DNA from: Sialis fuliginosa
Lineage: Eukaryota > Arthropoda > Insecta > Megaloptera > Sialidae
Assembly (NCBI GenBank): GCA_961205875.1
Contig: OY540812.1
Coordinates: 31,133,098-31,197,097 of the forward strand
Length of the DNA: 64,000 nucleotides
Reading direction: 5' to 3'
Below are positions 40,041-61,150 of the stretch, in pieces. Position numbers and translations under genes: made by a program. The notes under the pieces are model-generated. The model was given only the letters and a program-made list of their open reading frames with translations, was not told the origin of the DNA and searched no databases. The stretch's first letter is position 1. Each line of letters begins with the position of its first letter.

Positions 40041-40103
40041 TAGTATAACACCCCTTACACACTAGTGACATCGCGTCATGGCATGCTATTGTATGCTATA
40101 AAA

Positions 40104-41661
40104 CAGGACTGGCCAACCCGCGGCCCGCGATGCTCTTATGTGCGGCCTGCGGCCACATATGAAGAAATTATGTTTTTATAATGTTTATTTTAAGTATCAG
40201 ATGTATCAGAATGACTGAGGTTGGTTTTAATTTCCCATTGATTTATTTAAAATATTGTTCTATTTATGTGACTTAACTATTCATTTTAATTGATAATTTT
40301 GTTTTATAATATAACAGAAAAATTTAAATTTGAAATATATTTTTGTTAATAAATAAAACCATTATTTATTAGTATTTTAAATACTTGATATATTTTGTTG
40401 TTGATTAAATATTTTTTTTAAATTTACTATGATTGAAAATTTGCTTGTTTTTCCCCCTAGGATTGTATGAGACAAATTGCAACCCTTTATCTGTGATGAG
40501 GCGAAATATTGAGATTTTTTTCACTATTTATTTACTATACAAAATCGTAAATATTTCTATTGCGAGGTAGTGGGTAATTTCTTCTCTAAAACTTCTACAC
40601 TTATGTATGTAGAATTTTTCGCACCAGATCGAATAATATCAATTACTACTCTTCATCTATGGTAGGGGGCGAAATATTGAAGGTCGGCTATATGTATAAA
40701 ATTCTATGAAAAGTAGCTATACATTTTTTACATTTATTATTATATTTAAGAGTTTATTATATTATAAAATTGATTATATAAGTTATCTATTGGCTTTTTA
40801 TTTATGGCATGATTTTATTAGTTTCGGAGATATAAGATTTCAAACTGTGACATATTTTCGTTACATTCGTGTTTCTGAGGTTATTCTATTCAACTTGAAA
40901 AATTGATTACCCGGGAAAAAAATTTGGTTGATCTTCATTTTGGAACAAATCAGATCTTTGTAAATAAATAAACTTGTGTCTACCTTAAATAACAAATACA
41001 CATATACTACCTATATAGAAACCTTGTTTATAATTTAATCAATTTAAAAAAAATTGTACAGAAACGTATTGAATGAAATTTGAGGCCCGTGTATTAAATT
41101 AATAAATAAATTCACAACTCACCCCCTGTCACAGATGAAGGGTTGTAATTGGTATCGTTCGATCCAGCGGGAAAAATACTTCGGGATACTAGGGGCGTGG
41201 GGGGCAAAACAACCTTTTATCAGGAGTCGAGATATTTACGATATTCTATAATGAATACCATAAGTAGCGAAACAGAGAAAAATTCACTTAGTATCCCGAA
41301 GTATTTTTCCCGCTGGATCGAATGAGACAAATCACAACCCTTCATCTGTGACAGGAGGTGTGTTGTGAATTTATTTATTAATTTAATACACGGGCCTCAA
41401 ATATCATTCAATACGTTTCTGTACAATTTTTTTTTAATTGATTAAATTATAAACAAGGTTTCTGTGTATGTGTATTAATTTGTTATTTAAGGTAGACAAA
41501 AGTTTATTTATCTACAAAGATCTGATTTGTTCCAAAATGAAGATCAGCCGAGATCACTTCAGATTTGAAATTTTTTCCCGGGTAGAAAAAAACTGTGCGG
41601 CCTTCGGAAAATTTTAGGTCGTCAATGCGGCCCGCGGTGCAATTTGGGTTGTCCAGGCCTG
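40104..41661. mobile_element. hAT-type element (second level of the nest)
   Basis: Ends CAGGACTGGCCAACCCGCGG then CCCGCG and, on the complement, CAGGCCTGGACAACCCAAAT then TGCACCGCGGGCCGC. The flanking 8-bp duplication CTATAAAA (40096-40103, 41662-41669) is perfect. Typical hAT ends of the CAGG-NTGGSCAAC-CGCGGCCCG kind. 1558 bp long, with no transposase found. The internal segment TGAGACAAAT then CAACCCTT-ATCTGTGA at 40468-40498 is also present inside the guest. Confidence 0.9.
40910..41582. mobile_element. CCCGGG foldback element (innermost of the nest)
   Basis: TA then CCCGGGAAAAAAATTT at the left (TA at 40908-40909) and the complement with TA at the right (41583-41584). The arms are about 290 bp each (40910-41195 and 41290-41582) and keep blocks such as CAGAAACGTATTGAATGA, GAGGCCCGTGTATTAAATTA and CGGGAAAAATACTTCGGGAT. 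A related copy is at 60764-61127. Because parts of its centre also occur outside it in the host hAT, an alternative is that the hAT carried this sequence and it later became inverted. Confidence 0.75.
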
Positions 41662-42086
41662 CTATAAAATGTAATGTAATGTAAAATTAATGTACGCGAT
41701 AGTCGCGCTGCTAGAAGTCGCTAGTGTGTAAGGGGTCTAAGAATGTAAAAAAATGCATTAAAATATCAATATAATTGTTTATTGTAAGCGAGGTGGGTAG
41801 GGTGGATGGAAGTTAAGTTTTAATTTAATATTTAAAATGCTTTTTGTTCTGATTAGATGAAATTTATCAAGACATCAAAGTTTTGCGTGGAGTAATGAAA
41901 ATATTTTAACTGGTGTACATGTAAAGGCTTTTAGCGAAAATGCGAGCTTACGTTATGTCGTGCTTCTTGTTTACTGTTGGAATTTTGACACTTTTTCAAA
42001 AATAGTTTTCACTTATAGAATATAATTCAAAATAAAATATTAGAGGGGGCTATATCATGATATTTATTGGTGTTTCTATGTTTTAA

Positions 42087-48110: not shown

Positions 48111-48177
48111 TAGAACCTCGGGACCACGAATGTAACATTTGTCACACTTTGAAATCTTATATCTCCGGAAGTAATAA

Positions 48178-48632
48178 TCTAACAAGGGGACCACCAGACC
48201 CTTGTGTTGCACCAATTAGTTTAAAAAAATAGGGTTGTAGTAGTGACATAGACAAACCTACACATTACACAAGTCGTTTGACGGAAAACTCATAAACAAA
48301 CGAGAACAAAATTATTATTAAATTCCTCTGTAAATTCACTTAAACATAAGTACCTATCCAGTTTAAATCAAACGAAACGCTAGAGGTGGATCGGTCGTTA
48401 GCGCAACGGGCTGGCAACCATGAATGCCCGGGTTTGGTCCTCGATGCGATCGATTTTTTTTTTGATACTTTTTTTTTATACATATTTTTAAGCGAATTTA
48501 CAGAGGAATTTCATAATTTTTTTCTCGTTTTTTATGAGTTATCCGTCAAACGGCTTGGTGTGTAGGTTTGTCTATGCCACTATTACAACCATATTTTTTT
48601 AAGCAAATTGGTCTGATATCCCCTTGTTAGAG
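48178..48632. mobile_element. foldback element with a tRNA-like sequence in the loop
   Basis: Left arm 48178-48350 and right arm 48488-48632 are inverted copies: TCTAACAAGGGGACCACCAG / CCCCTTGTTAGA; GTGACATAGACAAACCTACA / TGTAGGTTTGTCTATGCCAC; TTTGACGG / CCGTCAAA; AAATTCCTCTGTAAATTCAC / GAATTTACAGAGGAATTT. The loop (about 48351-48487) holds the tRNA-like block at 48383-48450 followed by T-runs. Confidence 0.8.
48383..48450 (+). repeat. tRNA-derived SINE head (pol III promoter-like)
   Basis: GAGGTGGATCGGTCGTTAGC then GCAACGGGCTGGCAACCATG, CCCGGGTTTGGTCCTCGATG. An A-box-like TGGATCGGTCG lies at 48387-48397 and a B-box-like GGTTTGGTCCTC at 48431-48442, about 44 bp apart. The order and spacing are those of tRNA-derived SINE heads (GTTAGCGC-ACGGGCTG ... 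CCCGGGTTCGAATCC). It does not close an acceptor stem, so it is not a functional tRNA gene. T-runs follow at 48453 and 48471, as at the 3' side of such elements. Confidence 0.65.
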
Positions 48633-48794
48633 CAATAAATAAAACGCAAATAGATAGCTAATACAACCCTATTTATAATAAACCTTAACCAGAGATACTC
48701 CAGTAAGAGTTATGACAGCATTGCCATTTTTAACCAAACCGGCGGTGACGTGATTTATTCAAAAATTCATTTCTGTTATTTTTAGCATATGCAT

Positions 48795-60672: not shown

Positions 60673-61150
60673 GCACGCTAGCGTAAATTTATATCTCGAC
60701 ACTTTAAGTTATAGATCTCGATTATATCTACGAGGTACAAGTTCAAATTAAAACATTTAACCACCCGGGAAAAAAATTCAGATCTGAAGTGATCAAATCA
60801 GATCGTGATAGATCTGCGTTTTGAGACAACATAATATTTTTTCACTAGATTTTGGTCTGTGGAGATTTGCAAAAATCTACAATGACCTACAAAGATCTAC
60901 AACGATCTACAAAGATATCTAAAGATCGTTAAAGATCGTGATAGAGATTGAAACGTTGAACATTCATGAAATTTAAACGTTACAACGTTCTTCAGAGATC
61001 TTTGTAGATCGTTGTAGATCTTTGTAGATTTTTTTAGAGCATTGTTGATTTTTGCAGGTCTCCACAGATCAAAAACTAGTAAAATAATATAATGTCTCAA
61101 AATGCAGATCTATCACGACATTTTTTTAGTGAATGAAAAACTTTATAACG
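60673..61150 (+). repeat. direct repeat, interrupted copy
   Basis: CACGCTAGCGTAAATTTATA, CGACACT, AGTTATAGATCTCG and AAACATTTAACCA, then the foldback element, then AGTGAATGAAAAACTT. Shared order with 60156-60355. Confidence 0.65.
60764..61127. mobile_element. CCCGGG foldback element, second copy
   Basis: CCCGGGAAAAAAATTCAGAT at the left. Arms pair from CGTGATAGATCTGCGTTTTG at the left and its near-complement at the right (CAAAATGCAGATCTATCACG). The centre is made of ACAAAGATCTACAACGATCT-type units on the left and TGTAGATCGTTGTAGATCTT on the right, so most of the element is a stem. The right end lacks the outer CCCGGG part. Related to 40910-41582 by its first 16 bases and by GAAGTGATC. Confidence 0.75.

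Follow-up and report, generated by a model that had tools for sequence, protein, structure and literature searches.

At positions 40046-41740 of the window, the stretch of 64,000 nucleotides analysed here (C4:31133098-31197097), a MITE, a hAT, and a foldback lie one inside another, and the hAT carries, outside the foldback, a copy of part of the foldback's centre. This locus raises two questions: can the order of the three insertions be read, and where did the likeness between the two inner elements come from? We searched the 392-Mb assembly (20 contigs) for copies of each element. Almost certainly, the MITE, the hAT, and the foldback were inserted successively, while the shared likeness is older, pieces of a 171-bp unit having probably been taken up independently. 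The nest itself is ordinary transposon nesting, with nothing different in principle from known nests.

Layout of the nest

Each of the three elements is interrupted by the next. The outermost, which the initial annotation had taken for a PIF/Harbinger miniature with TAA duplications, spans 40049-41737, and TAA is present on both sides (40046-40048 and 41738-41740), in line with TTA/TAA pairs at other loci of this MITE. Its inverted arms (40050-40072 and 41714-41736; 23 nt) are 91% complementary. The left part (40049-40103, plus strand) aligns with hAT-free MITE copies and includes one copy of the hAT duplication, and the right part (41670-41737, plus strand) is matched by several genomic copies at 94-97% identity over 60-66 nt.

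The MITE is split by a non-autonomous hAT (40104-41661, plus strand) with the ends CAGGACTGGCCAACC... and ...CAGGCCTG, whose family has a consensus of 956 bp. The perfect duplication described for it is there, CTATAAAA occupying 40096-40103 and again 41662-41669. Inside the hAT lies the palindromic foldback (40910-41582, plus strand; 673 bp, against ~701 bp in its family), recognized from family copies, with CCCGGG at both ends and, as annotated, TA on both sides (40908-40909 and 41583-41584), the TA pair being supported by the sequence and by empty sites. Its arms are complementary in two blocks, one 183 nt long (94%) and the other 72 nt (96%).

A 171-bp unit common to three repeat families

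Within the hAT, part of the foldback centre recurs at 40449-40496, where it is 81% identical to 41304-41351; a weaker copy lies at 40615-40662 (63%). The initial annotation had noted this extra copy as something that a simple insertion does not explain. The copy is real, but it needs no special event, both families having already carried the module. Aligning the hAT consensus with that of the foldback gave a 160-nt match of 75% identity (E 7e-28), and the likeness is therefore not due to chance. Two genome searches with parts of the hAT listed 40 and 41 rows. From either list 30 loci were fetched, and these 60 hAT loci correspond to 55 distinct ones with the window copy counted. The module was present in 54 of these 55, the exception being L031, whose match to the hAT stops at consensus position 324. 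The module thus belongs to the families and not to the locus. At one foldback locus (L003), a module match of ~114 nt lies some 380 bp from the foldback.

A third, abundant dispersed repeat was reached via the neighbour of another foldback copy (L077), with 3845 first-look candidates, 40 of which were scored. Three of its loci (L107, L108, and L109) have the boundary ACTAGCT in common, and L107 and L109 remain alike for ~1 kb further. Helitrons, with TC...CTRR ends, no target duplication, and a RepHel partner, were considered as a candidate class for it. The repeat contains short tandem arrays, with 3.8 units of 171 bp in L108 and 2.6 units of 173 bp in L107. Two of the 3.8 units in L108 (G000:C1:44287950-44289050) are identical over the 167 nt compared, which points to an array that has grown recently within this repeat.

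The hAT consensus aligns unbroken, from position 353 to 588, to the tandem units at positions 345-574 of L109 (73% over 240 nt). According to the consensus and array alignments, the module in the window hAT (40448-40681, plus strand) comprises ~1.4 head-to-tail copies of the 171-bp unit, which accounts for the two direct motif copies found 166 bp apart. In the foldback, one unit extends across the left arm and loop (41096-41263, minus strand; 76% to L109 over 174 nt), and its arm half is repeated in inverse, alignment placing this partial second copy in the right arm (41295-41358, plus strand). The identities between units are 74-80% for foldback and array, 64-74% for hAT and array, and 67-73% for foldback and hAT. 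In a tree of the units, the deep nodes, and with them the direction of exchange, are weakly supported. An RNA family as the content of the module was considered and rejected, since Rfam gave no match at the gathering threshold in L001, L077, L108, or L109.

The shared module predates the nest, and the simplest reading is that the hAT and the foldback took up the unit independently, the array repeat or its ancestor being the probable donor. Alternatively, one of the hAT and foldback families might have received the module straight from the other, with the third repeat acquiring it later. The occurrence of the unit in all three families, the weak deep nodes, and the hAT unit being about equally near the array units and the foldback are all compatible with such a passage. 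However, the foldback unit is nearer the array units than the hAT, and the hAT carries its 1.4 units in array order, so we consider direct passage unlikely, though worth keeping in mind. A broader and rather doubtful idea is that the 171-bp unit is a portable module exchanged between transposon families. Unrelated non-autonomous DNA transposons would have taken it up repeatedly for some benefit that it gives them, be it through replication stalling, template switching, or the binding of a factor, and its inverted duplication would have helped to make the palindromic foldback.

It is very improbable that the extra centre copy is the remnant of an earlier foldback in this hAT, or a product of gene conversion after the present foldback had landed. 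The 81% likeness of the window hAT to the foldback arm over 48 nt would fit either event, but the module is found in nearly all distinct hAT loci, foldback-free copies included. Moreover, the motif copies are direct in the hAT and inverted in the foldback, and the arrays agree with the direct arrangement only. The foldback unit is in any case nearer to the array units than to the hAT. When two nested transposons carry the same repeat, it can thus mimic a locus-specific oddity even though it is a property of both families. This lesson, together with the concrete case of one tandem-repeat unit distributed over three families of repeats, matters more than the nest.

Element families and the order of insertion

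The foldback site was spanned without a foldback in 32 of the 55 distinct hAT loci, with no insertion longer than 26 nt in the aligned stretch, and half of these loci (16 of the 32) have the exact string GATTAGAAAA at the unoccupied site. The remaining 23 loci, among them the window copy and L020, do not span the site in this sense. In L020 the site is intact (TTGATTAGAAAAAAACTGTGCGG), no foldback is present, and the right junction is shortened in the same way as in the window hAT; L020 is the exact empty site for the window foldback. The window copy reads TTGATTA, the foldback, and then TAGAAAAAAACTGTGCGG, and comparison with the empty-site strings shows that the foldback insertion duplicated TA and nothing else. 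The window hAT is missing ~45 bp of hAT sequence just right of the foldback. This loss is older than the foldback, because the foldback-free L020 has the same junction, which rules out the foldback insertion as its cause. L020 is itself split by an unrelated insertion of ~300 bp (~2296-2610), slightly left of the site and ending only ~10-20 nt from it.

Another hAT copy, L088, flanked on both sides by TATTAGAC, carries the foldback at a different hAT position with its own TA duplication, and the foldback is therefore not part of the hAT. The view that the foldback is integral to the hAT family, leaving a single insertion level inside the MITE, can draw on the 160-nt stretch that the two have in common but has practically no chance of being correct, as it is contradicted by the empty sites in the 32 loci and L020, by the finding that only L088 among 27 other fetched foldback loci sits in this hAT, and by the exact genomic matches, which number 652 for a 31-bp foldback end and 48 for a 22-bp hAT end. 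At L077, the foldback lies inside the third dispersed repeat at GAAACTA/ATTACAAAC, and matching unoccupied sequence is found in L109.

First-look searches yielded 3042 candidates (not copies) for a mixed hAT and foldback query and 1533 for the foldback alone, with 40 places scored for each; as the first query combined the two elements, these figures carry no claim that foldbacks are enriched around hATs. We read 27 foldback copies besides that of the window together with their flanks (L002-L008 and L069-L088), leaving out 12 further scored places. A script test found both CCCGGG ends retained in 22 of the 27. Identical 2-bp flanks were observed in 20 of these 22, comprising 14 TA, 3 TT, and a single case of each of AA, CA, and AT; the other two (L002 and L071) have no matching flanks. 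The TA flanks that had been claimed thus hold for the window and for most of the identical pairs, but the family is not strictly TA, having a 2-bp duplication with a TA preference. Assignment to Tc1/mariner, which duplicates TA strictly, was rejected, since six of the 20 identical pairs are TT, AA, AT, or CA. The Drosophila FB element makes a 9-bp target duplication and was likewise rejected in view of the 2-bp duplications seen here.

The 22 two-ended copies are 98.4-99.4% identical to the 701-bp consensus; the window copy is 97.5% identical and 28 bp shorter. The consensus has inverted arms of ~300 nt over nearly its whole length and a loop of ~100 nt, and no tandem subrepeats were seen in it by eye. 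A reversed control of the 31-bp end gave no genome match. The family is young and very abundant. A second CCCGGG-ended palindrome in the window (60764-61118) has the terminal 31 nt of the foldback and is otherwise different; it is 77% self-complementary over 60803-61118, and its right end has apparently been lost. A short element with the same CCCGGG end type occurs at ~3053-3310 of L017.

Among 100 matches listed of the 652, two inverted foldback ends 3.1 kb apart led to L112 (G000:C1:31656074-31659261), a relative 3148 bp long whose 73-bp ends match those of the foldback (97-99%). Both of its arms contain 10-bp periodic repeats. Foldback positions 72-400 occur in it once in good condition (96%), and after this copy comes a less similar one, direct and partial (81%, 78 nt). 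The flanks of L112 are unequal (TA and AA). L112 may be a recombinant. The 701-bp palindrome could have arisen from an L112-like element via inverted duplication of an arm and half a unit. At ~380-2266, L112 contains another nested palindrome, with the ends GCCCGGTCAAA and arms 97-99% complementary, around an open frame of 196 aa. This frame gave no significant Pfam match (best E 0.096), and L112 was accordingly rejected as the autonomous partner of the foldback.

The hAT consensus of 956 bp, built from 11 copies and the window copy, does not include the foldback, and the family is abundant. Of the 55 distinct loci, 23 could be shown to have both hAT ends. By a scripted count, 15 of these 23, the window included, have perfect 8-bp duplications, and eight have imperfect ones (one with a single mismatch, seven with more). 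All 15 perfect duplications read NNNTANNN, with TA at positions 4-5, a form typical of the Buster group of hATs; examples besides CTATAAAA are ATCTAAAC and TTATAGAG. The short TIRs, CAGGGCTGGCCAACC and CAGGCCTGGCCAACC, are of the CAGG... type, which is the typical hAT form. A control for the exact 22-bp end gave no match. The hAT dimerisation domain (PF05699) had 150 scored genome matches, all over the cut-off, and none of them was tied to these hAT ends. The window hAT is 88% identical to its consensus, compared with the 97.5% of the window foldback and the 98.4-99.4% of the other foldback copies, and this divergence agrees with the order of insertion. At 48114-48680, the window contains two further fragments of this hAT family, both short and degenerate.

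For the MITE, a search with its two flanks joined produced 221 candidates, of which 40 were scored, most matching only the right ~60 nt. Two loci, L089 and L090, cover both MITE halves across the hAT site (75% and 78%) with no hAT, and the left segment ATCGCGTCATGG(C/T)ATGCTAT of the window MITE recurs in two longer variants (L096 and L098). The length of the MITE was 125-219 bp in ten loci read. A permissive script, allowing end shifts of up to 2 and accepting only TTA and TAA, was run on 17 further MITE loci and found one of these at both borders in 10 of them. The remaining seven showed no such pair, several of them with one end missing from the stretch read; in L093 both ends are present with mismatching flanks, and L104 fits the script poorly. 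No exact hAT-free allele was found among the scored MITE copies, the nearest differing by indels around the insertion point. The hAT-into-MITE step rests therefore on flank continuity and the 8-bp duplication, and is slightly less tight than the foldback-into-hAT step. One further locus (L106, G000:C1:18122876-18123779) contains a tandem run of the MITE right end, with nine same-strand matches, eight of them 97 bp apart, as though a small satellite were forming from the MITE end.

The readable insertion order proposed in the initial annotation is supported by the foldback-free hAT copies, by L020, and by duplications, which were found at other insertions of all three families. The nest records the succession of insertions in a clean, checkable way and dates the three families relative to one another. 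Before it formed, the hAT and foldback families would have independently acquired pieces of the 171-bp unit. The Harbinger-like MITE then landed in TAA and a member of the hAT family in CTATAAAA inside the MITE; last, a foldback entered the hAT at the TA within TTGATTAGAAAA. All three are almost certainly cut-and-paste insertions by non-autonomous DNA transposons, the transposase for each step presumably being made elsewhere.

Comparison with known systems

In ordinary nested insertions, the order is given by which element interrupts which, by duplications at each level, and by empty paralogous sites; the window nest resembles them in all three respects. Its hAT family has 8-bp duplications and short TIRs starting with CAGG in common with the hAT superfamily, and differs from the superfamily in general in that its interior carries the module of 171-bp units. 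PIF/Harbinger MITEs have 3-bp TTA/TAA duplications and short TIRs, and their ends are acted on by a DDE transposase and Myb-like partner proteins. The window MITE family, here termed Harbinger-like, is like them in duplications and TIRs.

Searches of an open-licence library for a similar foldback in Lepidoptera, butterflies, or Bombyx returned no paper about such an element, judged by title and the start of the abstract. In the portions of the source used here, Tetris, a foldback of Drosophila virilis, is described as carrying in its arms ~220-bp tandem repeats that seeded satellite arrays and that were suggested to derive from its own arm (PMC4079207). Tetris and the window foldback are alike in their foldback structure, in being apparently non-autonomous, in having ends common to other elements, and perhaps, given the 10-bp repeats of the larger relative L112, in tandem repeats tied to the arms. 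As far as those portions describe Tetris, the window foldback differs in its TA-preferring 2-bp duplication, its CCCGGG ends, and a 171-bp unit common to other repeat families.

Tandem repeats are also carried by MITEs and Helitron-like elements such as miDNA4 and DINEs (PMC9659126, PMC12628747), and oyster Helentrons provide a further precedent (PMC7492417), again according to excerpts of these papers. In each of these, as in the window, a tandem-repeat unit rides on, and was probably captured by, small non-autonomous DNA transposons. Tetris and repeat capture of the miDNA4 type, to the extent covered by these excerpts, are close precedents, and one module common to three repeat families is the moderately interesting part of the locus. 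Unlike miDNA4, DINEs, and Helentrons as there described, the window case has the same unit in three differently ended families.
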